A DNA stretch of 64,000 nucleotides from Calothrix brevissima NIES-22 (GTDB taxonomy: Bacteria > Cyanobacteriota > Cyanobacteriia > Cyanobacteriales > Nostocaceae), in contig NZ_AP018207.1 in NCBI RefSeq assembly GCF_002367995.1, positions 7,302,199-7,366,198 of the forward strand, read 5' to 3'. Of this stretch, positions 7,518-23,861 are shown piece by piece. The first letter of the stretch is position 1; every line of letters begins with the position of its first letter. A program made the translations under genes and the position numbers. The notes under the pieces were generated by a model. It was not told the origin of the DNA. It was given only the letters and a program-made list of their open reading frames with translations, and did not search any database.

Positions 7518-8462
7518 TTAGCGAAAAATATTTAACAAGCGATGAATGGCATTCGTTCCTTCATTAATAGTACCTGTGGTTTGATTAATTACATTAATAC
7601 CTTGGTGGACATCAGCTAAAACATTATTAACATCATCAATGACATCACGACTATCGGGTTGTGCTGAAGGCGTATAGGCTACAGCCGTATTTGCTGCCTT
7701 TTGAGAATCTAATTTTAAGGCTAACTTTAATTTTTGTTGAGCAGCCAAAGTTAAAAAAGTATTGATAGGAATTGCATAATTAAACCCAGGTTTAATTAAA
7801 CTAGCAATGTTTTCCGCAGCATCGGCGCTGAGTTGTCCTTGTCTAGTTAATAAATCGGGGTCTTCTGTATCTCCTAATCCGTGAATCCCCACTACACGAC
7901 CGCCACCATCAAATACCGGGCCTCCACTCATCCCCTTACGAGTAACATTGGTGTAAATCATTTGGTAGCCTTCTATCGGTTGGTCTAATGTTCCTGATAT
8001 TTGTCCAGATGTAAATTGACGGACTAATTGTTTAGTGCTTCCAGGTGCAGGCCATCCAGAAATAAACACTGAGTTACCAACAACAGCTTGTTGAGAGTTC
8101 GCAATTTTCGCTACTTTGTAGTTTTGATTGCTACTAAACTGTACAACAGCCATATCAACATTTGGTAAGCGGGTAATGTTAGTTAATTGATAGGCTTTTT
8201 TATCAGAAGTGACTACTTTATAATTATCCTGTTGGGCAACAACATGATAAGCAGTCAACACATGATAAGTATTCTTATCTTGAGAAATAATTACTCCCGA
8301 ACCATGTCCTTGTTCTCCTTTAATTAAAACTGTAACTTCACGAGCTATATTATTAATTTCCTCTCCAGTCATTGCCATAGCAGCTACTGGTTGCATGATT
8401 ACAATAGCGCTAACAACAGTTGTACCAGCTAAAATTGCTGCAAGATTATCTTGATATTTCAT
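7518..8462 (-). CDS. Exported trypsin-like serine protease
   Basis: A 314-residue S1-family protease with an N-terminal signal sequence (hydrophobic at about 7-28, likely cleavage after AMA near residue 30). The catalytic triad is H73 (TAYHVV), D103 (NVDMAVVQF) and S179 (RKGMSGGPV). The tail after residue 260 is polar and looks like a separate small segment. A GAGGA ribosome-binding site precedes the ATG. It is the last gene of a three-gene run with a paralogous protease (gap 75 bases) and a COP23 protein, and should act in the periplasm or outside the cell. Substrates are unknown. Confidence 0.88.
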   Translation of the reverse strand: MKYQDNLAAILAGTTVVSAIVIMQPVAAMAMTGEEINNIAREVTVLIKGEQGHGSGVIISQDKNTYHVLTAYHVVAQQDNYKVVTSDKKAYQLTNITRLPNVDMAVVQFSSNQNYKVAKIANSQQAVVGNSVFISGWPAPGSTKQLVRQFTSGQISGTLDQPIEGYQMIYTNVTRKGMSGGPVFDGGGRVVGIHGLGDTEDPDLLTRQGQLSADAAENIASLIKPGFNYAIPINTFLTLAAQQKLKLALKLDSQKAANTAVAYTPSAQPDSRDVIDDVNNVLADVHQGINVINQTTGTINEGTNAIHRLLNIFR

Positions 8463-8537
8463 GATTTTTCCTCTAAGAAGTCTAAATTTTCAACATTCAA
8501 TTAATGAAAAGATAGTTAACAAAATATTAACCATCAT

Positions 8538-9320
8538 TTATGAACACCCTTGACTAATAATTGACTTTGGTGCCATTTTCAAAAAAGTTTCTATGGGCAC
8601 AGCCCAACTTAGTGCGCTCATTTGTTCTTCTAGAGATTTACTAGGAATTTCCTGATTTTGAAATATATAGGGATTACCCCACAATGGATAAGCATGTCTG
8701 GCATTAATCCCTATAACTTGACCTTGACGATTTAAAACTGGGCCGCCACTCATACCTTTTTGAATTTCATTGGTATATCCAATTTGCAAACCTCCTTTTA
8801 GCGGTTGGTTTAATAAGAGTTTGATTCTACCTGTAGTGAATAAAAAATTTGGTGATTCTAAAGGAAAACCAGCCGCAAATACTTCATTGTCTACTGATAA
8901 TTTTCCCGAATTGCGCAATGAGGCTACTTGATAGTTTTTAGTTTGGCTGCGAAATCTTAATAAAGCTAAATCCTGCCCAGAAAAGTTAGCCGTTTCCACA
9001 ACGAAAGCATGATAAATCTGACTATCAGGCGTTTGAATGCGATATGCTTTTCCTTGTCCTGAGATTAATACATGGTCGTTAGTTAAAACTGTATAATCTT
9101 GTCCTTGCTTATGAATTACAATTCCCGAACCCCAAGCATCTCCTGAAAAAACTTTAACGGTAATTGATTTGGCATATTTATGCAATTGCACTGTTGATAG
9201 TTCTGGTGCAATGCAGGAATTAGCTCCTGTTAAAGTCGTGTTTTCAGCTAATATCTGTTCAGGGAAGTTAGCTAAGTAAAAGTTCAGACAGATTGTCAGT
9301 ATTAACAAACCTTTATTCAT
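8538..9320 (-). CDS. Exported trypsin-like serine protease, paralogue
   Basis: A 260-residue S1-family protease related to its downstream neighbour. Signal sequence at residues 1-25 (cleavage near ILAEN). Catalytic triad: H83 (TNDHVL), D117 (GQDLALLRF), S191 (QKGMSGGPV). Four-residue blocks around the serine are the same in both proteases, which suggests an old tandem duplication. It starts only 28 bases after the COP23 stop, so it is probably cotranscribed with that gene. Confidence 0.88.
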   Translation of the reverse strand: MNKGLLILTICLNFYLANFPEQILAENTTLTGANSCIAPELSTVQLHKYAKSITVKVFSGDAWGSGIVIHKQGQDYTVLTNDHVLISGQGKAYRIQTPDSQIYHAFVVETANFSGQDLALLRFRSQTKNYQVASLRNSGKLSVDNEVFAAGFPLESPNFLFTTGRIKLLLNQPLKGGLQIGYTNEIQKGMSGGPVLNRQGQVIGINARHAYPLWGNPYIFQNQEIPSKSLEEQMSALSWAVPIETFLKMAPKSIISQGCS

Positions 9321-9348
9321 CTCTCATCAAGTGTTGGTATTTGCAAAA

Positions 9349-9951
9349 CTACCAAACTCTTTCGGGAGAGATAACTTCAGGTTGAGCGCTAGGGGTAGGA
9401 GCGGATGTTGATTCTTCTGAGGTAATATTCAACAACTGATTAACATCAATATAATTAGTATCAGTTGGAGTATTCCTTGACGAACTAAAACTTTCATAGA
9501 CAACAGTATTACTTTTACCTTCACTAATATCAAATAATTGTTGTAAGACACGACTAGCATTTGCACCTGGTTTGAGAGTAAATAACAAACCTTGACAACC
9601 ACCACCTTTGGTGCTGCTGACACAAACTACAGATTGGCGATTCATAATACCTGTGGTGATGTAATTTAACATCCCATTATTTTTGTAGGTTTGAAACCTA
9701 CTAGAGACTTCTTGACAACGTTGTTCTGGAGTATAACCAGCTGCTGCAAAATCCCAGGACTTCCAACGAATTACCGGGACATTACGAGATTTAGTCTGTG
9801 CATAAGTAGTGAGTACTCCTTGCGAGTTGCGATCGCAAAAGAAGGTAGTACTTTGAGCTAAACTTGGTTGATGGCAACTCAAAACAGCCGCTAAACTCGT
9901 AAATACAGTCAAACTCAAGGCTTTGGCGCTGGATTTTACAGTTGTATTCAT
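9349..9951 (-). CDS. COP23-domain exported protein
   Basis: A 200-residue protein with a signal sequence (about 1-32, cleavage near SLAQS). The mature part matches the COP23 family, named after a circadian-oscillating 23 kDa membrane-associated polypeptide of Cyanothece: FFCDRNSQGVLTTYA, then VIRWKSWDF and PEQRCQEVSSRF, and a paired VVCVS / GGGCQGLLFTL. Four cysteines in the mature part could form two disulfides. The biochemical role is unknown. It heads a tight cluster with two trypsin-like proteases, and might be a partner, inhibitor or substrate of them; that is inference from gene order. Confidence 0.85.
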   Translation of the reverse strand: MNTTVKSSAKALSLTVFTSLAAVLSCHQPSLAQSTTFFCDRNSQGVLTTYAQTKSRNVPVIRWKSWDFAAAGYTPEQRCQEVSSRFQTYKNNGMLNYITTGIMNRQSVVCVSSTKGGGCQGLLFTLKPGANASRVLQQLFDISEGKSNTVVYESFSSSRNTPTDTNYIDVNQLLNITSEESTSAPTPSAQPEVISPERVW

Positions 9952-10131
9952 ATCTTGCCTGAATAACGCTACTAATCCTTTATCGGGTTAACTTTGAAAA
10001 ACCATGCATTGAAGATTTAAACTTATTTTTGTGGAAGACTATTTGACTAAACCTAAATAGACTTGAAACCCTTACCAATGACAAATGACAGCCTTTTCCA
10101 GCTATCTTGAATTGCACCATTTTAGGGATAA

Positions 10132-10614
10132 TTATCTGCCAAATGCGCCTATACCGTAGTAACAATAATTTGCTCTACATGTTGCCATTGTGACTTTAAT
10201 TTGAAATTTACCACTCCAACGAGGACGGACTCTGACAGCTGGGTAATCATCGTAGCCAGTGTCAGAATCGATGAGGTTTCCATCTTCGTCGTAAAGTCGC
10301 AAATCTATATCTCGACAATCTTGGTCACATACTCCAAGGATCGCATAATCGACACCTCGACGCAGATTTAGAGTTATATAATTACCTTGATTGCTACTGA
10401 GTTGATCGACAAAAGGATCGTGTGTAAGTTCGTAATTACCGCCCAAGTTTAAACTTACAGCCGCACGGATGAGTTGATCGCGGACACTATTTAGCCAATA
10501 CTCATTGTTAGCAAGTGCGATCGCTGGCGTAAAAACCATAGCAGTAGACACTAACCCCATTATCCAGTATTTTGAGCCTAAAATCGCCTGATTAACTTTA
10601 TTTGTATAAAACAT
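10132..10614 (-). CDS. Small exported protein, possible PPC-like beta domain
   Basis: A 160-residue protein starting at the ATG at 10614, preceded by an AAGGGA ribosome-binding site; a longer reading frame extends to 10728 but its extra residues look non-coding and enter a repeat. Signal sequence to about residue 37 (AIALA). The mature part has alternating strands with GNYITLNLRRGVDYAILGVCD and IDLRLYDEDGNLIDSD, ending in WSGKFQIKV. This resembles the bacterial pre-peptidase C-terminal (PPC) beta fold that accompanies secreted proteases, but the match is by eye only. Four cysteines. It lies between the TPR-CHAT gene and the COP23-protease run. Confidence 0.6.
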   Translation of the reverse strand: MFYTNKVNQAILGSKYWIMGLVSTAMVFTPAIALANNEYWLNSVRDQLIRAAVSLNLGGNYELTHDPFVDQLSSNQGNYITLNLRRGVDYAILGVCDQDCRDIDLRLYDEDGNLIDSDTGYDDYPAVRVRPRWSGKFQIKVTMATCRANYCYYGIGAFGR

Positions 10615-10714
10615 CGTTTCCCTTATGGTGTTTTTACTTCTGTATCTATATCGGGATAAATACAGATTTCCATGCACACACACTTCCAGGAAAACCCCCC
10701 GTATCCGTAGTTCC

Positions 10715-10903: not shown

Positions 10904-10922
10904 TTTCCCCGCCCTTCTTCCG

Positions 10923-10964
10923 GAATTACGAATTACGAATTACGAATTACGAATTACGAATTAC
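10923..10964. repeat. Heptamer tandem repeat AATTACG x6
   Basis: Six units of AATTACG. The stop codon of the TPR-CHAT gene (10961-10963) lies within the last unit. Confidence 0.9.
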
Positions 10965-13528
10965 AACCAATTACCCACAAGAACATAAGGGGCCCATTGG
11001 AATGGAGAACTTTCTAATTCCGCAAAAACGCTAAGTTGGGCGCGTCGCAATGCTTCAGCTTTACTTACGCCTGTCTTTAATTGCTTATAAAATTCACGCA
11101 TAATTTTTTTCGCTGATGGATCGTCTGCTACCCAAAGAGATGCTAAAGTACTACGTGCCCCAGATTTAACTGCAACCCCGGCTAACCCTAAAGCAGCTTG
11201 TTTATCACCTTTAGCAGTTTTGCAAGCACTCAAAACCAGTAATTCTATACTCTCTGGTTTGGTATTATCTCTGGTTCTTAATAAATTATCTAGCTCATTA
11301 ATTTTCAATAAATCATTCCAGGTGAGAATGTAAGTTTCGTCAGGGTTAGAACTAAACTGTCCGTGGGTGGCTAGATGCACTACTGAAAAAGGATCGGATT
11401 TTACCTTTGTTTCTAAGTTAGTTTTAGTAAAACTTGCATTATAAAGTTCTTGGTTTTGCGCAAGTTCGCTGCGAATTTCCGCGATTTCATTTTTAACATT
11501 TGGTAGAGAACTAAAAGTTTTACCAGCTACTTTAATTTCTTCACTGACTCCGCCAATTAAGGCATTTAATTTCACCTTTTTTAATGGCTTGGGTTCAACT
11601 AGCTGTAAACTGGGAGCCAACGCTATAGCATAATTTTGAATTAAATATTTTTGCTGCTCTCTATCGTACAAAATCGACATTGGGATATTTCGCAAAGCAC
11701 CATCTAAGACAAATACTAAGGTTTTGATTTGATTAGTTTCTAACTCGGCTTTAGCAGGTCGAATTAACCAATCATAAATCTGTTCGGATAATTCTTTAAC
11801 TTCATATTTGCGATTATCTATCGCTAAATTCCCTCTTAGCTGGTTAATGGTTTCTTCAACTTGAATTTTAGAGATACTAGTTGTGTAATATTTGATTTTT
11901 TCTTGAGATAATTTAACAATCGTTTCCACGCGATCGCCTAAAATAATGGGATAGATAATGGCGGTAGCTGGCTCATTGTTTGCTAATTGATCAATTGGTG
12001 TAATCGGGCGTTGACATGGTGTACGTAAAAAGTTATCAATTTCAGCAACTTGCAAAGATTCTATGACTTCGCGGGCACGGTTTAAATTATCAGCTTGAGA
12101 ATTTTTTTCCTGCAAGAGTAAGTCAACAAAATCTCGATACACAGGTTCTATATTCTCGCGGAATGAAAACTGAGTACTTTGATTCATCGCGATTAAATCA
12201 GTACGCAGTAATTGTAAAATCTCCCATGATTTCTCATATAATTTCATGGCAGTTTCTCTATCTTCAATTTTTAGATAATTTCCTAGATGCCATAACCATT
12301 GATAGGTAATATCTGGTGCATTAATACTTTGAGAAATTGATAATGCTTGCTGAGTGAGTTTTTTAGCTTGTGTTAAATCTCCGGTTTTTTGGTATGTAAT
12401 TCCTAAAGTACCAAGGGCGTAAGATTCGCCGCGCTTATCTTTGAGGCTTTGTGCTTCTTTAATTGCTTGCTGTAAGATTTCAATAGCAGATTGAAGAGTT
12501 AACGGTTCCTGCTCGCTATATTTAATGAGACTTTGAGCAAAATTAATCTTGGCGTATACAGATGTTCGGCTAACTGGTAACTTTGCAAGCTGAGATTTAA
12601 TTTGTGGTAATAATTGCCCTACTTGCTGCCAATCTTTTTCATCTATCAGCAAACTGAGTAAATTTAATTGGGCGTTAATTCTGGTAGTTGGGGTTGCTGA
12701 GGGGTTGATGGCTTGTTGATAAGATGTAATTGCTTTTTCTGTATAGCTTTTGATGCTATTTTTAATTTCTTTATTTTCTAAATTAATTGGGTTATCTCTT
12801 TGATTGCGGTATGTGTTTCCTTGGCTGAGGCGAATATCACTAATAATTTGTGCTGATTTGATGCGTTCTGCGACTTGCAAAGCTGCTGTTAATTTTTGTT
12901 CGGATTGTTGAAAATTACCCACTAGGCGGCGAATATTTCCTAAGTTGAGTAATCCGGCAGCTTTGACGGGAGAATCTGGTAATTTATTCAAGCTGTCTGC
13001 AACGGCAATTAAGGTTTTATCTGCTTGCAAATATAAGCCTAAATTTTGCATTGCTTGGGCTTGATTAATTTGATTGCGAATTAAGGATTCTTCATCTTTT
13101 AATTGTTGATAAATCTTGGCTGCGGCTTGCCAATTATTTAAGGCTGCTTCTGGATTTCCTTGAGATAATTGTAGCCGTCCTTGAATATCTAAAGCTTGAG
13201 CGAGGATTTGTGAGCTTTCTGGGGTGGAAAGTTTTGCTAGTAAATCTAGGCTTTGAGTAATGGCTGTTTCTGCTTGTTGCCACTGTCCTAATTGTTGGTA
13301 GGCTAAGGATAGGTTACTCAATGTCATGGCTGCATTGAGTTTATTTCCTTGGCGATTAAATGTAGCTAATGTCTGTTTTAAAATGTCTATGGCTTCGGCA
13401 TATTTTCCGGCTTGATAGAGGATTTGGGCTGGGGTTTGTTGGGGTGGATTAATGGCGAAGCTGGGGGAGAGGAAGATACAGAGTGATGCTGTTAATAGGG
13501 TGAGGAGGAGATGTTTGAGTATTTTCAT
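10961..13528 (-). CDS. Exported TPR-CHAT (caspase-like) protein
   Basis: An 855-residue protein from the ATG at 13528. A longer frame to 13675 exists, but the signal sequence (MKILKHLLLTLLTASLCIF, cleavage near SFA) begins at this ATG. Residues about 35-480 are TPR-like helical repeats (AEAIDILKQTL, YAEAIDIL, LGNIRRLVGNF, LGTLGITYQKTGD). The C-terminal third is a CHAT domain, a caspase-clan peptidase fold, with the catalytic pair H722 in LATHGQF and C769 in LSACKTA, and the usual ending FQWAPYVLVGNW. CHAT peptidases include the separase relatives and the TPR-CHAT partner of type III-E CRISPR effectors. With a signal peptide, this one should act outside the cytoplasm, which is common for the cyanobacterial TPR-CHAT set. 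Its own substrate is unknown. The gene is in line with the TPS exoprotein gene. Confidence 0.9.
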   Translation of the reverse strand: MKILKHLLLTLLTASLCIFLSPSFAINPPQQTPAQILYQAGKYAEAIDILKQTLATFNRQGNKLNAAMTLSNLSLAYQQLGQWQQAETAITQSLDLLAKLSTPESSQILAQALDIQGRLQLSQGNPEAALNNWQAAAKIYQQLKDEESLIRNQINQAQAMQNLGLYLQADKTLIAVADSLNKLPDSPVKAAGLLNLGNIRRLVGNFQQSEQKLTAALQVAERIKSAQIISDIRLSQGNTYRNQRDNPINLENKEIKNSIKSYTEKAITSYQQAINPSATPTTRINAQLNLLSLLIDEKDWQQVGQLLPQIKSQLAKLPVSRTSVYAKINFAQSLIKYSEQEPLTLQSAIEILQQAIKEAQSLKDKRGESYALGTLGITYQKTGDLTQAKKLTQQALSISQSINAPDITYQWLWHLGNYLKIEDRETAMKLYEKSWEILQLLRTDLIAMNQSTQFSFRENIEPVYRDFVDLLLQEKNSQADNLNRAREVIESLQVAEIDNFLRTPCQRPITPIDQLANNEPATAIIYPIILGDRVETIVKLSQEKIKYYTTSISKIQVEETINQLRGNLAIDNRKYEVKELSEQIYDWLIRPAKAELETNQIKTLVFVLDGALRNIPMSILYDREQQKYLIQNYAIALAPSLQLVEPKPLKKVKLNALIGGVSEEIKVAGKTFSSLPNVKNEIAEIRSELAQNQELYNASFTKTNLETKVKSDPFSVVHLATHGQFSSNPDETYILTWNDLLKINELDNLLRTRDNTKPESIELLVLSACKTAKGDKQAALGLAGVAVKSGARSTLASLWVADDPSAKKIMREFYKQLKTGVSKAEALRRAQLSVFAELESSPFQWAPYVLVGNWL

Positions 13529-13608: not shown

Positions 13609-13747
13609 TAAACTTCTTGCATAAATATTTTGGCTTTGTTGAGTATTCGTTTAAAAAGCTCACGCATACCGCCAAAGGCGGAACTCGCAGAGTAGGCGCA
13701 AAGTCGCAAAGAAGAACGCGAAAATTAGTACTTTTATCAGAGGTTTA
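13609..13747. repeat. Dispersed element related to 25354-25466
   Basis: It begins TAAACTTCTTGCATAAATAT and ends ACTTTTATCAGAGGTTTA. It shares AAAAAGCTCACGCA, a GCAAAG/GCAGAG core and the ACTTTTxxxAGAGGT end with the copy at 25354-25466. Its right end includes the stop codon of the TPS exoprotein gene (13745-13747). Confidence 0.65.
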
Positions 13748-16700
13748 ATTTTTTGGGTTGTTTAGTGCTGTGTTGCAAGTTGCTGGTTGTTGGGAATGAT
13801 GATTGGAGTTGGTGGTGGGGAGGTTGGCGCTGAGGGTGAGTTGTCCTTTTTCGTTGACTAACCAACCTGTGGCTTCGATGAGGGGTTGGGGGATTGTGGA
13901 AATTGCGGTTTGGTTATTGATGGATGCTGTGGGAGAATTTTCGGTTTTGGGTTTGAGTCTTACCCAATCGACTTGAACGGTGTCGGGATTTAAAATGTCT
14001 GTGGGGTTGCTGGGTAAACCACCTCGTCCTGTGATGATAAATTTACCTTGGGTTTGGGTAGGACTGTAACAACCTTCAGCGATTTGGGAATCTACGGGTA
14101 CTTGTGGTAAGGCGGCTAAACCTCGGCTGGGGTCGATACTATTGATGACGACTTCACCATTTTGTCCGAGACGGGAATCGGCGGAAATATCAACTTCTCC
14201 ATTCCCGCGAAATTGGGAAAAGTCGCCGGGGTTTCGACCGGAGGGGGAAAATTGGGCGATAAATGCCGGGGCGTTAATTGTAATATTACCTCCAGGCCCA
14301 GCATCGGCGTTGGCGAGGATGTCGCTATCTTCTAGAACCACAAATACTTGCGATCGCACATCAATATTACCACCGCCGCCAGTACCGTTAAAAACGCTGG
14401 TTGTGATTTCACTGCTGTTGCGCAGGCGGATATCTGTGGCTTTGATGTTGATATTTCCACCACCAGAAAGGATGGAGGTGGCTGTGATTTGTCCTTGGTT
14501 TCCTTGGATTTGGTCGGTAATATCAATAAAGATATCGCCGGCGTTACCTGTTCCCTCGCTAAGACTATTTAGCCTGCCGGTGTTGGTAAGGAATAGGGAA
14601 TTGGCTTGTACTTGAATATCGCCGCCTTGTCCTGAGCCAAGTGTGGCGGATGATACATCAGCCCTATCTATAATTGCTAAATTATCGGTTTGTAGGAGGA
14701 TTCCGCCGGCGTTACCAGTACTATCTCGTTGGGCTACAGTATAAATCTTACTGTTACCACTGGCTGTGATGGCATCTGAGGCGCGGATATGTAAAAATCC
14801 TGCATTTCCAGAACCCAGGATATTAGTAAAGATATTAGCTTGATTTTGGAGATTTAGTTGGCGAGTGTCTATAAAAAGTGTGCCTCCAGAAGCTTTACCT
14901 GCACCGGCTGTAGATATTCCGCCTGTATTAGCTATATTGACTGATTCTGTGGCGCGTATGGTCAAATTACCAGAGTTACCTTGAATACCGCTTTGTTGAT
15001 TAGCTGCATCAAGACTTTCAAAGAAAAACTGAAGACTATTTATAGGTAATACTGATATTAATTTTGCAACCTCGGATTCTGGATCATTTTGTAAACTTTG
15101 ATATAGGGTTGCAACATCACTACTAATAGTAGATATTGAACTGTTTCCATCTACAATATTCAAATTTTTAGTTTCAATGTAAAGGTTCCCAGCACTACCT
15201 GTACCAAAACTAGATGTAGATATAATTCCACCCTGAATTAAATTGACAGAATTATCAGCATATATATTCAGATTTTCTGCACTGGCTGTGCCTACATTTT
15301 GGGAAGTGACAGCACCTTTATTGCCAATTGTTAAGGTTCCCGTAAATAGATTTAATTCTCCTGCATTACCAGAACCAATAGAGCTGCTTGAAAGTTGGCT
15401 AAAATTGTCTATATTAACAGATTCTTGAGCGCGGACTGTGAGTTTACCACTAGGATTTTGAGAACCAACAGAGCTAGAAGTAATTAACGATTGATTTTGC
15501 AAGTTCAATTTTTTTGTATCAATTAAAACGTCTCCTGCTGCTCCATTAAGCTGAATTGCCAGTGAAGTTATAGTTCCTTTATTGATTACATCTATAGATT
15601 CCCTAGCTTGAATAAACAAATTACCAGCTTTAGCCTGATTGCCTAATGTAATAATACCACCAGCATCCTGTACTAATAATTTTTCTGTAAATATAGAAAG
15701 GTTACCTCCATTTTTTGTTCCTCTATTTTGGGTACTTATGCTAGAAGCACGAGTACCATCTTTACCAATAACATTAATAGAGTTTCTGGCATTAATTATC
15801 AGATTACCTGCTGTTTCTTGATTGATAGTTTGCAGCCCCAGAAATCCTCCATTTAAAATATTGAGTGTTCCTGTTTCAATTTCTATATTACTTCCTGTAG
15901 CAGAACCAGAACTGATGCTAAGTAAATTACTTTTTGCACCGATAATATTGATATTTTCTGAAGCATTGACTTTGATATTACTAACGGTAGGAGAATTAAT
16001 ATTTTGAGTGGCGATAGTTCCTTTATTTATGGTAAAATTTTTAGTAGAAATTGCTATATTGGCTTCAAAAGAACTCACATTCGAGTTAATCTCTATATCA
16101 CCTTTTTCAGCATTTAACTGAATTTGACCGCCATTACTGAGAATTTGAGCGTTGACGAAAATATTCTTACCAGCTTCGGCTGTTATTCCCACACCTGGGA
16201 AATAAGTAATTACTGGCGCAGAGAAGGTGATATTTTCTGTGGCTTGTAAGGTGACGTTAGCTAAGGCAAAATTAAAGGCATTCGCTAATATTTTCGTGTT
16301 ACCATCACCACCAATATCATTATCACTAAAAGCATCAGCATCAGTTAAATCGAAAGTTTCTCCACCAGCAGCGACAATTTCAATATTTGTTGGATCTAAT
16401 AATAAAGTGCCAATATTACCGTTAGTAGCATTGGTATTAACTAAGCCGTTGTAATCTAAAGATTGTTTACCAGAAACTTCGACAAAGCCTCCATCACCAG
16501 AATTTACACCACCACGAGCGCTGATATTACCGTAAAATCTGGTATTGTTATCGCTCCAGACTATGACTCTACCACCATTTCCGTTATCAATTGCATCGGC
16601 GTTGATGCTGGTATTTTTACCAATAAATGTGCTTGCGGCGTTGGGAACTGTACCTTTTCCTTGAAAATCTCCGCCAATTAAGACTGTACCACCACCACCA

Positions 16701-17380
16701 ACGGCAGAAACCTCTATTTTGGCATTATCTAATAAGCCGATGCGATCGCCAAATATTTCTACTCTCCCACCAGGCGCAGTTATGGTTCCTGTGCTGGTAA
16801 CTGTGTTTGCTAATAATGTTAAACTTTGTCCGGTACCTACTGTTAAGTTCCCGGCGTTGCTAATATTCCCCTGTATCCCATTCTGCAAACCAGGACGGAT
16901 TTTTAATGTGAGTAGGGGTGGTGCTTCGGGGTTGGTAGTATTGAATTCTAAGCCGTTGTCAAATACTAAGCTTTTGGCGGTACTGGCGAAAAAGGAACCG
17001 CTAATATCTAGACGCGCATTTTCACCAAAAATAATGCCGTTGGGATTGAGCAAAAATAAGTTAGCATTGCCCAATACGCCAAGTGTACCGAAAATCTGCG
17101 AGGGGTTGTTTCCGGTAATGCGCGTCAGAATGTTGCTAACGCTGTGGGGATTTTGGAAGTAAACACCCCTACCCGCATCAATGTTAAATTCCGAGAAGCT
17201 GTGAAACAGGTTTGTCCCTCTGAGGGAACCGCCTGTAATTTGATCGATTTGGGGGTTGAGGGATTCTACTTTGGTTCCTAAACTATTATCGGGGATGACT
17301 TGGGCAAAAGTGCTATCGCTGATTGTAAATATTATCCCCAGAAAAGTTAAAAGGGCGATGATTAAAGGACTTTTTAGCAT
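13745..17380 (-). CDS. Filamentous-haemagglutinin-type (TPS) exoprotein
   Basis: A 1,211-residue protein starting at the ATG at 17380, where the signal sequence begins (MLKSPLIIALLTFLGIIFT, cleavage near TFAQ). Residues about 30-260 form the TPS (haemagglutinin activity) domain: TNLFHSFSEFNI, LTRITGNNPSQIFGTL, LLNPNGIIFGENARLDISGS (split), and SLTLLANTV. The rest is a beta helix of many imperfect repeats of the type GxLxIxTxxLxLxxxxxIxT, ending with the GCYSP ... GRGGLPSNPTD block typical of cyanobacterial family members. Such proteins are exported by Sec and then by an outer-membrane TpsB (FhaC/ShlB) pore to the surface. No tpsB is in the window. Neighbours DUF928 and CHAT genes recur with this family. 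Confidence 0.92.
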   Translation of the reverse strand: MLKSPLIIALLTFLGIIFTISDSTFAQVIPDNSLGTKVESLNPQIDQITGGSLRGTNLFHSFSEFNIDAGRGVYFQNPHSVSNILTRITGNNPSQIFGTLGVLGNANLFLLNPNGIIFGENARLDISGSFFASTAKSLVFDNGLEFNTTNPEAPPLLTLKIRPGLQNGIQGNISNAGNLTVGTGQSLTLLANTVTSTGTITAPGGRVEIFGDRIGLLDNAKIEVSAVGGGGTVLIGGDFQGKGTVPNAASTFIGKNTSINADAIDNGNGGRVIVWSDNNTRFYGNISARGGVNSGDGGFVEVSGKQSLDYNGLVNTNATNGNIGTLLLDPTNIEIVAAGGETFDLTDADAFSDNDIGGDGNTKILANAFNFALANVTLQATENITFSAPVITYFPGVGITAEAGKNIFVNAQILSNGGQIQLNAEKGDIEINSNVSSFEANIAISTKNFTINKGTIATQNINSPTVSNIKVNASENINIIGAKSNLLSISSGSATGSNIEIETGTLNILNGGFLGLQTINQETAGNLIINARNSINVIGKDGTRASSISTQNRGTKNGGNLSIFTEKLLVQDAGGIITLGNQAKAGNLFIQARESIDVINKGTITSLAIQLNGAAGDVLIDTKKLNLQNQSLITSSSVGSQNPSGKLTVRAQESVNIDNFSQLSSSSIGSGNAGELNLFTGTLTIGNKGAVTSQNVGTASAENLNIYADNSVNLIQGGIISTSSFGTGSAGNLYIETKNLNIVDGNSSISTISSDVATLYQSLQNDPESEVAKLISVLPINSLQFFFESLDAANQQSGIQGNSGNLTIRATESVNIANTGGISTAGAGKASGGTLFIDTRQLNLQNQANIFTNILGSGNAGFLHIRASDAITASGNSKIYTVAQRDSTGNAGGILLQTDNLAIIDRADVSSATLGSGQGGDIQVQANSLFLTNTGRLNSLSEGTGNAGDIFIDITDQIQGNQGQITATSILSGGGNINIKATDIRLRNSSEITTSVFNGTGGGGNIDVRSQVFVVLEDSDILANADAGPGGNITINAPAFIAQFSPSGRNPGDFSQFRGNGEVDISADSRLGQNGEVVINSIDPSRGLAALPQVPVDSQIAEGCYSPTQTQGKFIITGRGGLPSNPTDILNPDTVQVDWVRLKPKTENSPTASINNQTAISTIPQPLIEATGWLVNEKGQLTLSANLPTTNSNHHSQQPATCNTALNNPKN

Positions 17381-17580: not shown

Positions 17581-18378
17581 TCATTCGGTAAATTTGTAAG
17601 TTTCGCGAAATTTAGCGTTAGAAATATCCGCTAAATTCACGGTTTTTAATAATTCCCACCAGTCTTGATGAATGATTTCATCCTTGGGGCGATCGCGGTG
17701 GAATTCTGCTAATATAGTCAGGCTGTCATACCAGAGATTATTTTCTGCCAAAGTTAAATAATCATCTGGTTTAATATTCTGTTTTAATCCTACCTGTTGA
17801 ATATAACCATCTACGGAAATATATTCTTCAGATATGGCTGGTTCTTCATTACAATAAACTGTCAAGATCCACTGATATCTATTACCATTTTTTAAGGCAT
17901 ATTCTGGCTTATTTGGCAATTGCAAGTTGATAATACCAGCTTGACCGGAAAGGATTAATTTTTGGCGAAAAAATTTCTTTTGATTATCTATATCTTGGAT
18001 TGTAAATTCAGCAAATCTGGCATTAGTTGGTAATTCGGGAACGTAAACCCAAAAAGTAGGAAATTGAGATAAAGTTCTTTCTATAGTAGATTTTTCCATT
18101 CCTTCTTCTGTAAATGCTGGTACTAAAGCAGTAATTTGACTCAATTCTTGAGGACATTCACTACGTCCGCCGATTCCCCTCCTTCTCCCCTTTGGTGCGC
18201 CGTTGTTGGGTAATTTTCGTCTTTGAAATGTCTGTAATTGTTGGCGATTATTGGTTTGTTGAGTAACTGAATTATTCTCGGCTTGGGCTAAATTTGGTAT
18301 GATTGTTAAGGGAATACCTAATAAAGGTAAGCAACATAAAAATCTAATTATTGGCAAATTTAAATTTTGCATATTCAT
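17581..18378 (-). CDS. DUF928 family exported protein
   Basis: A 265-residue protein with a signal sequence (hydrophobic about 10-30, cleavage near LAQA). After a basic linker (RRKLPNNGAPKGRRRG), residues about 75-250 match DUF928, a cyanobacterial domain of unknown function: CPQELSQITALVPA, then TFWVYVPELP, AEFTIQD, YRWxxxVYCN-type strand (YQWILTVYCNEE) and a C-terminal helix LAENNLWYDSLTILAEFH. DUF928 genes commonly neighbour CHASE2, CHAT and TPS exoprotein genes. Function unknown; periplasmic location is predicted. The gap to the CHASE2-CHAT gene is 72 bases and holds a 20-base palindrome. Confidence 0.88.
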   Translation of the reverse strand: MNMQNLNLPIIRFLCCLPLLGIPLTIIPNLAQAENNSVTQQTNNRQQLQTFQRRKLPNNGAPKGRRRGIGGRSECPQELSQITALVPAFTEEGMEKSTIERTLSQFPTFWVYVPELPTNARFAEFTIQDIDNQKKFFRQKLILSGQAGIINLQLPNKPEYALKNGNRYQWILTVYCNEEPAISEEYISVDGYIQQVGLKQNIKPDDYLTLAENNLWYDSLTILAEFHRDRPKDEIIHQDWWELLKTVNLADISNAKFRETYKFTE

Positions 18379-18430
18379 GATATTTTATTTTGGTTAATGA
18401 GGGTAATTAAAGGTGGGTGTCAATGCTTAT

Positions 18431-18450
18431 AGACGCGATTCATCGCGTCT
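18431..18450. repeat. Palindrome AGACGCGAT/ATCGCGTCT
   Basis: Two 9-base arms with a TC centre. It abuts the stop codon of the CHASE2-CHAT gene. Identical copies are at 51437-51456 and 56621-56640, with a variant at 51463-51482. It could form a hairpin at the 3' end of the transcript. Confidence 0.85.
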
Positions 18451-20850
18451 CTACAATTTTCCTGCTTGTCCTCCTCTTTGAGGCTGATTTAATAAATAAC
18501 TAACTAAAAAGTGAGTAATTATAAATACCAATAATGCCGGGATAAATGGTATCCATCCTGCTGAGAAAAAAATTCGTAAACAGATAGCCCATAAGCTGAA
18601 AATGCCGATGGATACTAGAAATATTCTTTGAATAAATGTAAAATTACATATAGCTAACCAAGCTGCAAAAACTGACCATAACCACACCCATATTGCTTCT
18701 ATTTTTAAAGTCCACCACCACAATAAAGGTCTTTCTTTTAAAGCTGCACTGATAATTTGACTGATCATCTGTGCTTGAATAAATACTCCTGGTGTTTCTG
18801 CTATTAATGGTTGTGTAGAATTACTAAATGGCGTTTTCCATAAATCCTCATTGGCATTAATTTTGTTACGTGCAGTAATCCCAATGAGTATCAAGCGATT
18901 TTTGAGTTCATCAATAGGGATGCGATCGCGTAAAATATCTTTAAGAGAAATTTTTTTAGCAATATTATCTGGCGTTTCTTGGGCACGATAATTTAGTAAT
19001 ATTTGATAACCTAGATAAGGTTGCACATCTAAATCTTGATAACCGCTACTGTGGTTGGTTAATTTGGGAAATACCACATCACCAATTTTTAATTCCCCGG
19101 TTGGGGTTACTTCATATTGTTGATTTTGTGGATTTAAATAGTGCAATGCTAATTTGAGTGCAAAAGCATCTTCAGCTTGACATAAAGATGTTTTGTCTTG
19201 AGTCATATTCATTAGCTGACGACGAATTGTATGATGTGCATCTTCTACAGCATCACTAAAACCAATTCTTGTGTCTGGAACATTGGGTGCTGGTGCTATT
19301 CCATAGGTAATACCATCATCTTGAGTTGCGCCTTTACAGATAGTATGTAAACGATTGTCTTTTTGAAATCGCGTGGCTATATCTATATATTTAGGATCTG
19401 GGGGAATATCGCGATAAATATCTAAGCCAATTGCTTTTGGTTGATAGCGATCGAGTTTTTGTAATAGTTCAGCTAATGCGCGATCTGATAGCGACCATCG
19501 CATATCCATTTTCTCATTTTCTTGATAAGTAATATCTTCGTCACCAATAGTTACAATTAAAAGGCGATTGTCTGGTTGTTCTGGTAAGATGTGCGATCGC
19601 ATTTGCATAAAATGGTCAAATGCATGTAATTCTGAAGGTTGCAATAAGCCGATGTAACGCACTCCCATAACTAAGTTGGTGACGATGAAACTTATCAAAA
19701 TCATCGTTATCAAAGTACGTTTGCGGTTTGGAGTTGTTTGTCTGGTTGGTTGTTGAGGTGGTTGCCAAGTTGATAATTCAGTTGGAGAATTTTGACAAAT
19801 TACTGGTAACCAACTAGCGCAAGGATGCTCGTTTTCTAATCCTTGCAGTCTTTCCCTGGCTCTGCGTACCGCTAGCGTCAAAGATTCACCCTGGGCTAAT
19901 TCTGCTAAAAAATACTTGAGGAATTCCTGTGCGACTATATTCGGTACATCCTCGCGCATGACGATAATTTGCGGGATGTATAATTTAGCCAATTGTCGCG
20001 CCAAGCCTAAACCATCGCAGGAATTGAAAATTGCTAGCTGTAAACCCTGCTGAATTGCTTGAGATAAGGCATACTCTAAGTCAGGGATGTTTAAACTGTG
20101 ATTTTCTGGATTTTGATTAATGTAAATCTTGGCTTTGCTGTCTTCTGCTTGACTAGAACTATGTCCAGCAAAAAATAAAATATCCCAACTTTGCTGCCAT
20201 AATTTATCATTAATAGTTTTGCGATCGGGTTCTAATAAGAATGTGGGTGTGATATTCGGAAGTTGGCTTAAGAGATTTTTGTCTGTATTAATATCTATTC
20301 CCCGACTATCTCCCAAAATAGCCAGTACCCGCAATTGATTGCTAGATGTTGGCGATTTACCTGCTACCCGCTTTGATTCCAGCAAACTTAAAACTACTTC
20401 TGATTGGGGATAATCAGCGACAAATTCCCATAAATGCCAAGGTAAGCGCCACAATAAATCATCACTAGCTTCTATGACAATCCGTATCTCTGCTGTATAA
20501 TTTAGCAATGTCCGCAATTTTCTCTCTATATCGCGGAAGCTTTCAGCATTTAGCCAAGAGTTAATTTCTCTTCGTAAGCGCTCACATAAAGTATATAAAT
20601 CATCTTGGGAAATATTAGTTAAACTGGCGCTGTCAATTTCAATTCTGCTACTACGATTTAAACGTTGAGCTAAAGCGCTGTATAAATGTTTCCAATCACG
20701 ATAACAGGTAATAATTTCTGGTGCTGGTGGTAAACTGCCAAATAGTTGTTGCAATCGCACGCCATCAGTTTCCCATAATTCAGCAGTAATTGAGGGAAAT
20801 CCCGCCTTAAAACTACCTAGTCCAAAATTGAAGACAACGCGCTTACTCAT
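18451..20850 (-). CDS. Membrane CHAT-CHASE2 fusion protein
   Basis: A 799-residue protein from the ATG at 20850 (MSKRVVFNFG); an upstream ATG at 20904 adds 18 unlikely residues. Residues 1-365 form a cytoplasmic part ending in a CHAT peptidase domain: H230 in FFAGHSSS, C278 in FNSCDGLG, and the usual tail ending ASWLPVICQ. A transmembrane helix at about 377-395 is followed by a periplasmic CHASE2 sensory domain at about 400-690 (VTIGDEDI near its start, DIYRDIPPDP, and the ILIGITARN strand), and by three helices at about 715-790. CHASE2 normally feeds kinases or cyclases; here the only enzymatic domain is the caspase-like one. It probably converts an external signal into proteolysis. It stands between DUF1822 and DUF928 genes. 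Confidence 0.9.
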   Translation of the reverse strand: MSKRVVFNFGLGSFKAGFPSITAELWETDGVRLQQLFGSLPPAPEIITCYRDWKHLYSALAQRLNRSSRIEIDSASLTNISQDDLYTLCERLRREINSWLNAESFRDIERKLRTLLNYTAEIRIVIEASDDLLWRLPWHLWEFVADYPQSEVVLSLLESKRVAGKSPTSSNQLRVLAILGDSRGIDINTDKNLLSQLPNITPTFLLEPDRKTINDKLWQQSWDILFFAGHSSSQAEDSKAKIYINQNPENHSLNIPDLEYALSQAIQQGLQLAIFNSCDGLGLARQLAKLYIPQIIVMREDVPNIVAQEFLKYFLAELAQGESLTLAVRRARERLQGLENEHPCASWLPVICQNSPTELSTWQPPQQPTRQTTPNRKRTLITMILISFIVTNLVMGVRYIGLLQPSELHAFDHFMQMRSHILPEQPDNRLLIVTIGDEDITYQENEKMDMRWSLSDRALAELLQKLDRYQPKAIGLDIYRDIPPDPKYIDIATRFQKDNRLHTICKGATQDDGITYGIAPAPNVPDTRIGFSDAVEDAHHTIRRQLMNMTQDKTSLCQAEDAFALKLALHYLNPQNQQYEVTPTGELKIGDVVFPKLTNHSSGYQDLDVQPYLGYQILLNYRAQETPDNIAKKISLKDILRDRIPIDELKNRLILIGITARNKINANEDLWKTPFSNSTQPLIAETPGVFIQAQMISQIISAALKERPLLWWWTLKIEAIWVWLWSVFAAWLAICNFTFIQRIFLVSIGIFSLWAICLRIFFSAGWIPFIPALLVFIITHFLVSYLLNQPQRGGQAGKL

Positions 20851-21103
20851 TGCTAGCTCACTATGCAGCTTCAGATTTACCACACATAAATTCAGTGTTA
20901 ACAATGAGAATTAAAGTAATAAATATTCTCGATTATTTGCTAACCCTAATTTCCTGTGAGATACTTTTAACCTATACAAGTATATATACGGGTTTTTGGT
21001 CGAGAATTTCATGAAGAATAAAAGGCATTACATGAAGATTTCGTCAAATTGCCGAAAAATTAGGACTATATAGAGAAAAGCCTGATAAATCACTACTTGC
21101 AGC

Positions 21104-22303
21104 CTAATTATCATCATCAATCGCGAATTCTTCTACAAAACTGACATCAGCGATCGCAAGTTGAATGTAAAAATTTGTTCCTTTATCACAGCGAAAATAC
21201 GGTAATTGAATATAGCTATCTCGTTCTCTAGAAGTCACCGCATGAAGCTGTTGTGATGAATCTGACAGTAAAGCCAAAGTTAAAAAAGCCGGTAATTGTT
21301 TTTCGCTTCCATAAGGATGCGCTTGTACCAAAACCCCAACCCTACCATCTGCTTCCGGAGTTAGCGCTACTAACAAAATTACAGATTGCTCTTTGATTTG
21401 CAACTGCAAATTTAACAGCTTGGCTTGTTTAATATGTGCGGTATTCCTCACAGTCACTAATTTTGGTTCTGTGGTGAAAAATTCACTCACCGAACACCAT
21501 CCAGCTTTCATAGACTCGGTAAAATCATTGTTTAACCAATGATGGAGATTTACTAACATCTTTTTGGCTGTTGTCGCAGTGCGATTTATATAAAGTTGTT
21601 CTCGCCATTCATCATTTGCTAATAATACACCCCACTGGGTAAAGGGAATATCTAAACGGGGAGAATAAGGCGATGGCTGACTTAATTTATCGATCAGCGA
21701 TGCGGCTATTGTTGGCGATAATAAAGGTAAAGATGGTATATTTGCTGTCTCTGCACCACAAATTTCTCGCGCCAACAATATAATATCTAAATCAGGAATC
21801 AAATCATGACTATTAACTGAGTAGGTGCGATAAATTGGATCGTGTACAGCTTTTTCTTTGAGAGTTTTATGCGTGATATAACCCCAAAGTCGCAGCCAAT
21901 TCTGTTCTAAGTTGATTTGTACAGGTAAATAATAACTAGCGACAAAATTAGGAATATCAACCCATTCTTGCGGTACAGAAAATTCTGCTGTATCTACCGC
22001 ATCGTGAGGAATTAATACCAATCGTCTTTCCCCAATATTTAAAGCCGTACCATTAACTAATTCCCAAATACTCGCTAATTCTCTCGCGCTGGGAACTATG
22101 TAACTAGAGTCTAACTCCCAATTTTCTTTTAACCAACGTAAAAAGCCATGCAAACAAAGATGATTAATATAAGCATAATGACGAGCGGTTTGATTACTTT
22201 GTAAATTTGTTGCAGCTTCTGCTTGTTTAAGTTCAGTTTCTTGACAATCTAGCCAGATATTGTCATCTGTGTAAAGTTGAAATGTTTTCCAGTTGCTATT
22301 CAT
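21104..22303 (-). CDS. DUF1822 family protein
   Basis: A 399-residue protein. The ATG at 22303 has an AGGA site 8 bases upstream and gives the typical start MNSNWKTFQLYTDD; the frame is open to 22345. Matching DUF1822 features are the WLDCQETELKQAEAA helix, HYAYINHLCLHGFLRWL, ERRLVLIP, and the PQEWVDIPNFVASYYLPVQ block (split), followed by WGYITHKTL. The C-terminal half carries LQIKEQSVILLVALTPEADGRVGV (split). DUF1822 has no assigned biochemical role and is almost confined to cyanobacteria, where it sits next to sigma-like and CHAT-CHASE2 genes. No signal peptide. It follows the sigma-like gene by 28 bases, so the two are very likely cotranscribed. Confidence 0.87.
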   Translation of the reverse strand: MNSNWKTFQLYTDDNIWLDCQETELKQAEAATNLQSNQTARHYAYINHLCLHGFLRWLKENWELDSSYIVPSARELASIWELVNGTALNIGERRLVLIPHDAVDTAEFSVPQEWVDIPNFVASYYLPVQINLEQNWLRLWGYITHKTLKEKAVHDPIYRTYSVNSHDLIPDLDIILLAREICGAETANIPSLPLLSPTIAASLIDKLSQPSPYSPRLDIPFTQWGVLLANDEWREQLYINRTATTAKKMLVNLHHWLNNDFTESMKAGWCSVSEFFTTEPKLVTVRNTAHIKQAKLLNLQLQIKEQSVILLVALTPEADGRVGVLVQAHPYGSEKQLPAFLTLALLSDSSQQLHAVTSRERDSYIQLPYFRCDKGTNFYIQLAIADVSFVEEFAIDDDN

Positions 22304-22331
22304 TGTTAATTTCCTGAATAAATATAAAATT

Positions 22332-23861
22332 CTAATTATTACCAAAATCAGCAGTCTTTAGCCAGTCATCCATTAAATATCCCACTTGCTTGGATGCTAT
22401 TCCTTCATTAGCTAAAGGCATATTAATTCTAACGGCAATTTGTGTGATTATATCTAAATTCAGAGTTTCTTTGCCTAATTTTAACTGATGCTCAACTTCT
22501 AGCAACGATAAATTGCTTAACTTAGCTATTTGCTCTACATGCATTTGTTGCAGCCAAAATAAGCGCATAATTTCTCGCAATGGAGATGCTAAGGCTTGGA
22601 GAGAATTATTCAAGAAATTATGCATTAAGCTGTAATAAAAGCCATCCAGATATTCTTGTAAATAAGTTTTTAAATCATTGAGCTTTTCGGAACTTAAATC
22701 TATTTTTAAATATTCCTTAGCCCATGTTCCTAAATGACTTAACAATTCCCACAAAGTTTTTTTGTAACGCCGCCCAACAGTAGATTGATTAGCACCAATT
22801 TCTACACCGATTTTTTCTTGAGATAAATTTAATCCATGTAAAAATAGAGGAATTCTTTGTGCTTCTGGTTGCAAACGATCAATTTGGTAAGAAATTTGTT
22901 CTCTTAATTGGTGAAGATACTCCCTAATTTCATAACGCAGGCTATCATTTCCTTGAATAATTGAATTTTCATCGGGGACTAAATCTAACCGTGTTAAAGT
23001 TTCTGCATCCTGAGAAATTGGTTCATCTAAAGAAACTTGAGCGAAATCAATATAATTACGAATTGCTTTCCCAATTTCTTGTAGCCATTGCTGAATAACT
23101 GTTCCATCTACTGTTTGTGGCTCGGGTAATAACTGTGGTAATTGACAAGAAAACTGCTGATAACGGCTACAAATAGCATCAAAAGCTTGAGGTTGGGGAG
23201 AGCTAAAATTAATCAATCCTCCATCCTTAGCTTCTTGAAAACATTGCCAAACTAAAGTGTAATGTAAAATAGTCACTTCATTAAGTCCCAGACGTTGTAA
23301 AACCGTAACTACTCGCGTTTTAGTCACCCTAGCCGCTAATCCTAAATCACTTCTTTGAAATGTTCTTAAGCCTTCGATTTCGCGCAATTTATCGCAGAGA
23401 AAGCCTGTCATTCTCTTATTAACATATTTGGCGAATTTGTAATACCATATATGTAATTCTAAATTTTCATATTCTGGATATTTCCATAAATTATCTAAAC
23501 ATTTTTCTGGCGCTAAAGCACTAGTTAAAGAAATTTGCAATAATTCATGGAATAAAGTATCACGATCTAAATCAACTCTCGCCGATATTTTGACGATATT
23601 TGTCCTAATTTCCCAAGCCGCTTTATAGCTAAATCTTGATAAAAAAGCGCTCCAAACTCTTCTATTTAACTTTTTTTTAGGATCATTTTGAAAATTATGT
23701 AAAATAATTCTCACCAATTCGGGTTTACTAATATTAGGTTTTTGGTTAACTAAACTATGAATATATTGTTGTAATTGTTGATCTACTTGCCAAAAAATAT
23801 ATTTTTGTCCTTTTGCATCTTCTTTTAGCAAAGGAAATGTAAAAAATTCTGCAAATATCAT
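22332..23861 (-). CDS. Divergent sigma-70-like protein
   Basis: A 509-residue, mostly helical protein. Residues about 343-375 look like sigma region 4: HGLNLSQEKIGVEIG, then ANQSTVGRRYKKTLWELL, a helix-turn-helix with the usual turn. A second helix-turn-helix-like stretch is at about 440-475 (MHVEQIAKLSNLSLLEVE). An earlier R-x-F-x-R-S-D-L-G-L-A-A-R-V-T motif near 170-185 may be another DNA-contact segment. A canonical region 2 cannot be recognised, so it may be a regulator derived from a sigma factor rather than a true sigma. Members of this group precede DUF1822 genes in cyanobacteria. It is the first gene of the minus-strand run and is divergent from a Uma2 gene across 240 bases that should hold its promoter. 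Confidence 0.65.
   Translation of the reverse strand: MIFAEFFTFPLLKEDAKGQKYIFWQVDQQLQQYIHSLVNQKPNISKPELVRIILHNFQNDPKKKLNRRVWSAFLSRFSYKAAWEIRTNIVKISARVDLDRDTLFHELLQISLTSALAPEKCLDNLWKYPEYENLELHIWYYKFAKYVNKRMTGFLCDKLREIEGLRTFQRSDLGLAARVTKTRVVTVLQRLGLNEVTILHYTLVWQCFQEAKDGGLINFSSPQPQAFDAICSRYQQFSCQLPQLLPEPQTVDGTVIQQWLQEIGKAIRNYIDFAQVSLDEPISQDAETLTRLDLVPDENSIIQGNDSLRYEIREYLHQLREQISYQIDRLQPEAQRIPLFLHGLNLSQEKIGVEIGANQSTVGRRYKKTLWELLSHLGTWAKEYLKIDLSSEKLNDLKTYLQEYLDGFYYSLMHNFLNNSLQALASPLREIMRLFWLQQMHVEQIAKLSNLSLLEVEHQLKLGKETLNLDIITQIAVRINMPLANEGIASKQVGYLMDDWLKTADFGNN

Follow-up and report, generated by a model that had tools for sequence, protein, structure and literature searches.

A ten-gene cyanobacterial locus as a candidate membrane-to-transcription switch

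The 64-kb window analysed here belongs to the 9.26-Mb genome of Calothrix brevissima NIES-22, and its positions 7518‒23861 are filled by ten open reading frames (ORFs), all on the minus strand (Table 1). In the order of transcription they encode a sigma-like protein, a DUF1822 protein, a CHAT-CHASE2 protein, a DUF928 protein, a TPS exoprotein, a TPR-CHAT protein, a small protein (hereafter gene 4), COP23, and two trypsin-like proteases, S1b and S1a. The first four genes form a recurrent cassette, and the sigma gene, gene 4, and COP23 are each preceded by the promoter-like motif TGCATG-N15-CCCRATA, a feature first described here that links the cassette to exported proteins. We propose, with about even confidence, that the locus acts as a membrane-to-transcription switch and includes its own output, the components being a CHASE2/DUF928 sensor, CHAT, DUF1822, sigma, and the motif promoters.

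According to this proposal, CHASE2 in the envelope and an exported DUF928 partner would sense a signal, which would activate the cytoplasmic CHAT protease on the same polypeptide as CHASE2. CHAT would cut or displace DUF1822, which would hold the sigma-like protein, and the freed sigma would read the motif ahead of its own gene, gene 4, and the COP23-S1-S1 genes, with the result that exported and surface proteins are made. Since the cassette contains a trio of sigma, soluble neighbour, and CHAT resembling that of Craspase, we propose DUF1822 as the sigma inhibitor and, by the same analogy, as the substrate of the CHAT protease.

Table 1 Features of the locus in window coordinates.
Feature	Position	Strand	Support
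Sigma-70-like protein, 509 aa, two weak sigma-region-4-like stretches	22332..23861	-	TIGR02937 43.6 bits; alignment of relatives; profile comparisons
DUF1822 protein, ATG at 22303; candidate sigma inhibitor and CHAT substrate	21104..22303	-	PF08852 274.6 bits
N-terminal domain, CHAT protease, transmembrane (TM) segment, CHASE2, and three TM segments, ATG at 20850	18451..20850	-	CHAT 53.5 bits; CHASE2 198 bits
DUF928 protein, N-terminal hydrophobic stretch; candidate CHASE2 partner	17581..18378	-	PF06051 140.6 bits
TPS-domain exoprotein, filamentous-haemagglutinin type	13745..17380	-	PF05860 150 bits; TIGR01901 90.6 bits
TPR-CHAT protease-like protein, N-terminal hydrophobic stretch	10961..13528	-	CHAT 199 bits
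Gene 4, small protein, hydrophobic N-terminal stretch, ATG about 10614 (longest ORF to 10728)	10132..10614	-	
COP23	9349..9951	-	PF14218 154 bits
Trypsin-like protease S1b (Trypsin_2)	8538..9320	-	PF13365 89.8 bits
Trypsin-like protease S1a (Trypsin_2)	7518..8462	-	PF13365 89.8 bits
Promoter-like motif TGCATG-N15-CCCAATA, upstream of the sigma gene	23972..23999	-	kept in FACHB-973
Promoter-like motif TGCATG-N15-CCCGATA, upstream of the gene 4 ATG	10649..10676	-	kept in FACHB-973
Promoter-like motif TGCATG-N15-CCCGATA, upstream of COP23	9981..10008	-	kept in FACHB-973

Recurrence of the block and of its core cassette

All ten genes are present in the same order and on the same strand in Nostoc sp. 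FACHB-973 (loci L020, L113, and L114), with protein identities of 53‒82% (sigma 62%, DUF1822 69%, CHAT-CHASE2 69%, DUF928 53%, TPS 82%, TPR-CHAT 71%, gene 4 61%, COP23 65.5%, S1b 75%, and S1a 76%). DNA similarity between the two genomes spans, with gaps, 7616 to 24001 of the window, and the 36 kb of FACHB-973 compared contain no match to any of seven genes that flank the block in the window. A conserved neighbourhood, on which the initial annotation had staked its reading, is thus found both in this ten-gene order and in the core of sigma, DUF1822, CHAT-CHASE2, and DUF928, which recurs. The comparison argues that the ten genes are one evolutionary unit in an order beyond chance. Unrelated modules that happen to share a direction are a very improbable explanation, which we rejected on the basis of the FACHB-973 gene order: the COP23-trypsin genes and the sigma cassette do each occur apart, and the site is without the block in three same-genus genomes, but the recurrence of the complete gene order between different flanks in a second genome, together with a common motif, speaks strongly against it. 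The 53‒82% identities speak against an assembly error in FACHB-973 or its contamination from a relative of this strain.

The three same-genus genomes keep the ABC transporter-HlyD pair that adjoins the block (HlyD identity 77‒83%), and no block gene was found within about 14 kb after this pair. In these genomes, the best matches to DUF1822 (E 4e-55 to 3e-52; identities of 36 and 42% in the two genomes for which they were listed) come from paralogues. The distribution of the block is therefore patchy. FACHB-973 was the one locus returned by a collection scan with short peptide patterns, a method that may miss other carriers. The GC content is 38.0% in the block and 41.4 and 39.8% in the flanks, values too close to argue a foreign origin. 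The gap before gene 4 contains a stretch (window 10715‒10903) that gives a 199-nt DNA match of 81% to L135 9890‒10087, beside a same-genus HlyD locus, and is perhaps a dispersed repeat.

The core cassette is much more widespread than the block. This genome contains 11 DUF1822, 22 CHASE2, and 78 CHAT matches, and DUF1822 and CHAT are paired about ten times. At ten of the 11 DUF1822 loci, an ORF on the same strand lies upstream at a distance of no more than 250 nt, and four of these ORFs match the sigma profile; at ten of the 11, one of the three genes that follow encodes a protein with a conserved N-terminal domain ahead of CHAT (N-domain-CHAT). By the sigma profile, three loci (L027, L029, and L038) have the full form with sigma, CHASE2, and DUF928, or five if the upstream-ORF group U3 is counted as sigma (L033 and L034). 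We compared three further sets: a phylum sample of 53 loci, 51 of them with a DUF1822 profile match, from which most weak f15-family matches and a few others were left out; the best 20 loci of a same-family search; and a held-out set of the next 40 loci from that search, ranked by DUF1822 similarity, with two already-fetched loci skipped. DUF1822 is preceded, at no more than 250 nt, by a same-strand ORF at 47/51 phylum, 17/20 same-family, and 40/40 held-out loci, and this ORF matches the sigma profile at 16/20 same-family and 40/40 held-out loci. N-domain-CHAT is found within three genes of DUF1822 at 26/51, 19/20, and 36/40 loci, respectively.

The catalytic His/Cys dyad is retained in 52 of the 53 aligned N-domain-CHAT proteins, and the remaining one has a gap at this place. 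The N-terminal domain ahead of CHAT is conserved and gave no match in Pfam, a search that lacks an EACC2 profile. The C-terminal part varies among CHASE2, Peripla_BP_6, nSTAND1 with WD40, nSTAND1, and TPR. A trypsin-like protein takes the place of CHAT after DUF1822 at L061 10611‒12377 (confirmed by Pfam) and at L063 3179‒6130 and L064 10509‒13979 (both by profile), suggesting that the protease of the cassette is exchangeable. At L039, L040, L043, and L026, the sigma-DUF1822 pair has no adjacent CHAT gene and is followed by a small protein of 155‒169 aa; the pair is able to stand alone. Over 48 cassettes, the identities of sigma, DUF1822, and CHAT correlate at 0.67‒0.69 for every pair, so that no special partner is singled out.

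The second recurrent association is that of DUF928 with CHASE2, which is also first described here. For 14 of the 16 DUF928 matches in this genome, a CHASE2 match is found no more than 3 kb away. When eleven further genomes, two of which have no DUF928, are added, the count becomes 53/68, with 0.9 expected under uniform placement; two of the DUF928 matches are below the Pfam cut-off, and one CHASE2 gene appears as two matches. Of these 53 pairs, 52 are on the same strand, and 53 of the 107 CHASE2 matches in the same genomes have DUF928. Among cassettes, DUF928 occurs within the next three genes in 24/36 with CHASE2 versus 0/15 without it (Fisher p 6e-6; two loci with the CHAT gene at the locus edge excluded, and some loci mutual orthologues). 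Hydropathy places one TM stretch ahead of CHASE2 and three behind it in the protein of the block. Because of the linkage both in genomes and in cassettes, DUF928 is probably the partner of CHASE2 in the envelope. The only open-licence paper found on DUF928 (PMC5587647) mentions a single cluster in which a CHASE2 gene and a DUF928 gene occur together, in the strain coded NOSP7. In this genome, several canonical CHAT matches also lie a few kb from DUF928/CHASE2 genes outside DUF1822 cassettes, an observation made without statistics.

The promoter-like motif and the sigma-like protein

The motif was read from the aligned intergenic gaps of the window and FACHB-973, and its presence in the block is thus by construction, since the pattern was taken from there. 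What is informative is that it is absent elsewhere in both genomes, that it is common to three gaps, and that FACHB-973 has a fourth site, ahead of a C-type lectin/Calx-beta/RTX gene that follows the block. The window contains three exact sites only, all on the transcribed strand; six are found when two mismatches are allowed, a number within chance. Genome-wide, the exact motif occurs 3 times here and 4 times in FACHB-973, always within the block or immediately behind it; the 20 other genomes together contain 3 copies, and a backwards control gave 4 matches in the 22 genomes. The upstream regions of 18 other COP23 genes do not contain it (best 4 to 6 mismatches), and DUF928, TPS, and TPR-CHAT are each without an exact motif. 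The output read from the motif would comprise sigma itself, gene 4, and COP23 with the two proteases.

A related element, TGCATA-N16/17-CCCAT, precedes the sigma genes in two groups of the sigma type SIGc (nine loci). A widened pattern, defined after these elements had been seen and fixed before the held-out loci were searched, gave 19 matches in 107 loci (2.0 Mb; L020 and L113 overlap) and 2 with a roughly reversed control. Eighteen of the 19 lie upstream of sigma, of the first cassette gene (L098 and L103), of block genes, or of the post-block gene; many are orthologues, and by our reading they represent about six independent lineages. In the 40 held-out loci (0.60 Mb), the widened pattern has 8 matches, 7 upstream of a sigma gene and 1 spurious, and reversed and complemented controls have 0. 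These seven sites, some of them from same-genus, near-identical loci, lie at 77‒609 nt from motif start to ORF start; the widened motif points to the gene and has a near-constant spacing. They belong to 7 of the 16 held-out SIGc sigmas (close 5/5, remote 2/11) and to none of the 21 SIGa sigmas. When the regions upstream of 33 SIGa genes were searched for a bipartite motif in common, only start-codon and A/T-rich sequence emerged. By these comparisons, the widened motif tracks one sigma type, as a cognate promoter would, although it is missing from the remote SIGb-like relatives of the block's sigma; the sigma-like protein may bind the motif. CCCGATA with N15 also resembles the -10 element and spacing of sigma-28 (FliA) promoters.

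It is also conceivable, if improbable in our view, that another regulator or an ordinary sigma acts at the motif and that the sigma-like protein does not read it. The link between sigma and motif is drawn from sequence, the bipartite form would also suit an operator, the motif is missing from the three held-out loci with sigmas of the block's own type, and other COP23 genes have a different common upstream sequence. Against this stand the way in which the widened motif follows sigma type (close SIGc 5/5, SIGa 0/21), its near-constant spacing and direction toward the gene, and the restriction of the exact motif to this block in its own genome.

The sigma-like protein itself is below the Pfam cut-offs and is barely past that of NCBIfam TIGR02937 (42.9 bits). 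A profile of 25 relatives matches sigma factors of the PDB (a 243-residue sigma factor, E 2e-7; SigF, 7e-6; FliA, 3e-5), and its group, SIGb, aligns to SIGa at 99.9% (hhalign); one SIGa member of this genome scores 116 bits on TIGR02937. These comparisons place it as a long, divergent member of the extracytoplasmic function (ECF) sigma factors. In the cassettes at large, 8 of 10 upstream ORFs had no sigma match among family models, and we therefore used profile comparison instead. With hhalign, the upstream-ORF groups U3 and U4 align to SIGa at 98% and 85%, respectively, and to each other at 100%. U1, U2, and U5 are one family that gives no alignment to SIGa (1.2%, 0.4%, and 25%), and U6 was left unplaced. 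A 17-sequence profile of U1 and U2 matches SigK and SigE of the PDB at E 0.002, and one U2 member matches TIGR02937 below the cut-off. A structure model of the sigma-like protein from a two-row alignment (window and L020) had a mean pLDDT of 35 and is of no evidential use.

SIGb and SIGc proteins have 493‒575 aa with extra C-terminal sequence versus 386‒427 aa in SIGa. This difference would fit a pro-sigma with a removable C-terminal extension that CHAT cuts directly, DUF1822 then being an adaptor or scaffold and not an inhibitor. We consider this unlikely, as SIGa cassettes share CHAT-CHASE2 and DUF1822 and have no such extension.

Several observations weigh against the proposed switch. Both the binding of DUF1822 to sigma and its cleavage are taken from analogy. 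The DUF1822 profile has no meaningful match among PDB sequences, the sole match being Telethonin at E 0.96, and a structure model from a two-row alignment (window and L020) has a mean pLDDT of 37 and no evidential use. The score of the block's sigma is weak. In the phylum sample, the upstream ORF matches the sigma profile at just 11/51 loci and is often not a recognisable sigma; U1 and U2 do not align to SIGa (about 1% probability or less), NCBIfam gave no sigma match for 8 of the 10 upstream proteins tested, and at L028, L049, L050, and L054 a TPR-CHAT gene, not sigma, precedes DUF1822. As for the motif, shuffled window gaps equal its invariant columns in 1/200 trials, which is modest taken alone. 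The exact form has 0 matches in the 40 held-out loci; SIGb-like held-out sigmas, the block's own type, have 0/3, and 9/11 remote SIGc lack even the widened form. In both genomes, the longest ORF called for gene 4 includes the motif site, which stands just ahead of an in-frame ATG. Finally, 12/36 CHASE2-type cassettes have no recognised DUF928; four of these 12 contain a small gene with a signal-like N-terminus and weak DUF928 similarity (hhalign, the four together 79%), and of two such genes tested in Pfam, one matched at E 3e-4 and the other had no match.

Gene products, output, and neighbouring modules

The initial annotation had listed ten same-strand genes of stated families with legible catalytic residues and short gaps. 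The ORFs agree with the Pfam and NCBIfam searches on the families, and His and Cys of CHAT and His/Asp/Ser of the trypsins are indeed legible in the translations. Its quoted gaps of 28 nt (sigma to DUF1822, from the in-frame ATG at 22303), 72 nt (CHAT-CHASE2 to DUF928), and 28 nt (COP23 to trypsin) are right, but the gaps are not short throughout. With in-frame ATGs taken as starts, five are of about 180‒346 nt: about 253 nt from DUF1822 to CHAT, 200 nt from DUF928 to TPS, 216 nt from TPS to TPR-CHAT, 346 nt from TPR-CHAT to gene 4, and 180 nt from gene 4 to COP23, the last two with promoter-like sites.

A hydropathy scan found an N-terminal hydrophobic stretch in five of the seven downstream proteins (DUF928, TPS, TPR-CHAT, gene 4, and S1a); the N-termini of COP23 and S1b are under the threshold, yet look signal-peptide-like by eye. 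The same scan showed no TM or hydrophobic stretch in DUF1822 or the sigma-like protein. DUF1822 has no TPR match in Pfam; its low-confidence model suggests a C-terminal beta sandwich, and a fold search with this model returned mainly Ig-like and other beta-sandwich folds with query-normalised TM-scores <0.2 among the 50 matches shown. Pfam and NCBIfam searches gave no family for gene 4.

COP23 and trypsin form a separate recurrent module that is joined to the sigma cassette in this block. We examined 18 further COP23 neighbourhoods, drawn from 38 COP23 matches in eight genomes. In 14 of them, a same-strand trypsin-like gene is next or next but one downstream (one a fragment, L132); L120, L121, L127, and L128 have no trypsin-like gene. 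Single-sequence searches found no relatives of COP23 or gene 4 in 87 cassette loci (83 with a DUF1822 gene) reaching about 10 kb on each side, of which L020 and L038, covering the block's sigma end, stop short of its COP23; the two genes were accordingly rejected as parts of the core cassette. The idea of one regulated surface module gains support from the motif at sigma, gene 4, and COP23 and from the conserved order, but is qualified by the separate recurrence of COP23 with trypsin. The suggested protease cascade found no direct evidence and is not supported. In published transcript data, COP23 is described as having the strongest light-dark change in UCYN-A (PMC6315102, in part).

At L116, L117, L120, L121, L124, and L125, another stretch upstream of COP23 is shared, approximately GAAATGCT..CAA...GTTGTAGCT by eye, and is perhaps a different regulatory site. 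In genome G042, two of three COP23 genes are about 15 kb from a DUF1822 gene (C1 713030/728687 and 5520363/5535590; L064 with L122 and L056 with L127), which may be a looser echo of the COP23-DUF1822 linkage of the block.

An immunity or cell-death device, in which an invader or stress triggers CHAT autoproteolysis and killing and the sigma and surface genes are secondary, is another explanation that has to be weighed. The gene set equals the EACC2-caspase systems predicted by Kaur et al. in the relevant part of their paper (PMC8195603), other family members carry nSTAND1, WD40, and TPR parts, and the 78 CHAT matches of the genome would suit such a role. The two trypsins match protease parts of PADLOC models such as LmuA and RT-Protease_XI (best 57 and 59 bits), but these matches are to generic protease domains and genes g7‒g10 have no PADLOC match. 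Moreover, the motif-bearing genes look exported and not toxin-like, and CHASE2 and DUF928 face the envelope. We consider this explanation unlikely.

Two further features lie near the block. A second TPS-domain exoprotein of 834 aa is encoded at window 59534‒62035 (minus strand; PF05860 199.8 bits), 36 kb from the locus. Two Uma2-like genes, one per strand, adjoin the sigma end of the block at window 24102‒25317, the first identified by Pfam and the second by eye.

Comparison with known systems

The core of sigma, DUF1822, and caspase was already predicted by Kaur et al. in 2021, without experiment. In that work (PMC8195603), caspase proteins share a constant N-terminal domain, EACC2, and their variable C-terminal parts include CHASE2; where TRADD-N is lacking, most neighbourhoods contain an ECF sigma and DUF1822. 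The present locus likewise has DUF1822, an adjacent ECF sigma, a caspase-fold His/Cys protease, and variable C-termini in its relatives. Kaur et al. differ in proposing autopeptidase activation and in calling DUF1822 a TPR protein; in the present Pfam search DUF1822 gave no TPR match. The accessible text contains no TPS or hemagglutinin terms, and a literature search for DUF928 did not point to the paper. What the present analysis adds is the DUF928 partner, the motif, the COP23-protease output, and the ten-gene array. The statement of the initial annotation that no experimental description exists agrees with the open-licence literature, in which we found no experimental account of CHAT proteins in such cyanobacterial cassettes and no paper joining CHASE2 with a CHAT domain, but the core had been predicted.

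A 2012 survey (PMC3501461, in the sections relevant here) describes a Trichodesmium protein with a cytoplasmic metacaspase, one TM segment, CHASE2, and three TM segments. It also reports that sigma-70 factors occur in metacaspase operons of Myxococcus and several further genera. There the protease is a metacaspase and not CHAT ('chat' is absent from the text as available), the CHASE2 protein and the sigma operons belong to different organisms, and a literature search for DUF1822 did not point to that survey. A further paper retrieved for CHAT domain, sigma factor, and cyanobacteria (PMC12691664) concerns, in the part consulted, a different conflict system. With two-partner secretion the locus shares a TpsA with a TPS domain (PF05860 150 bits); no TpsB was found among the ten genes or 14 other window proteins, to which the scan was confined (E up to 1e-8). 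Anti-sigma proteolysis of the RseA/DegS type, as outlined in part in PMC10028731, resembles the proposal in its envelope signal, proteolysis, and sigma release; the anti-sigma there has a TM segment, whereas DUF1822 has none by hydropathy.

The closest experimental counterpart is the type III-E CASP system, in which the TPR-CHAT protease Csx29 cleaves Csx30, an inhibitor that binds CASP-sigma (PMC10028731, as far as the source was available). The locus shares with this Craspase a CHAT protease beside an ECF-type sigma and a third protein, which in Craspase is both inhibitor and substrate; DUF1822 and Csx30 are likened by role and gene setting, not by homology. Craspase is activated by a guide RNA via Cas7-11, whereas the protease of the locus is fused to a membrane sensor, and no Cas effector family, including Cas7-11, was found by Pfam and NCBIfam among the ten proteins, to which this search was confined. 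Somewhat short of even confidence, we suggest that the cassette may be a CRISPR-free counterpart of Craspase, in which the caspase-like domain of a CHASE2 and DUF928 receptor would itself free a dedicated sigma by destroying DUF1822. Such a system would be duplicated in genomes with exchangeable sensors, at least one sigma lineage having its own promoter code and surface regulon. If the proposal is true, it would add to the two-component and ECF/anti-sigma systems of cyanobacteria a further signalling class that leads from receptor to promoter, with a caspase-fold protease that controls transcription and not death. In a genome with 78 CHAT matches, the locus names a candidate protease, substrate, and sigma and three predicted promoters with their genes, and it provides a first functional lead for DUF928 and DUF1822.

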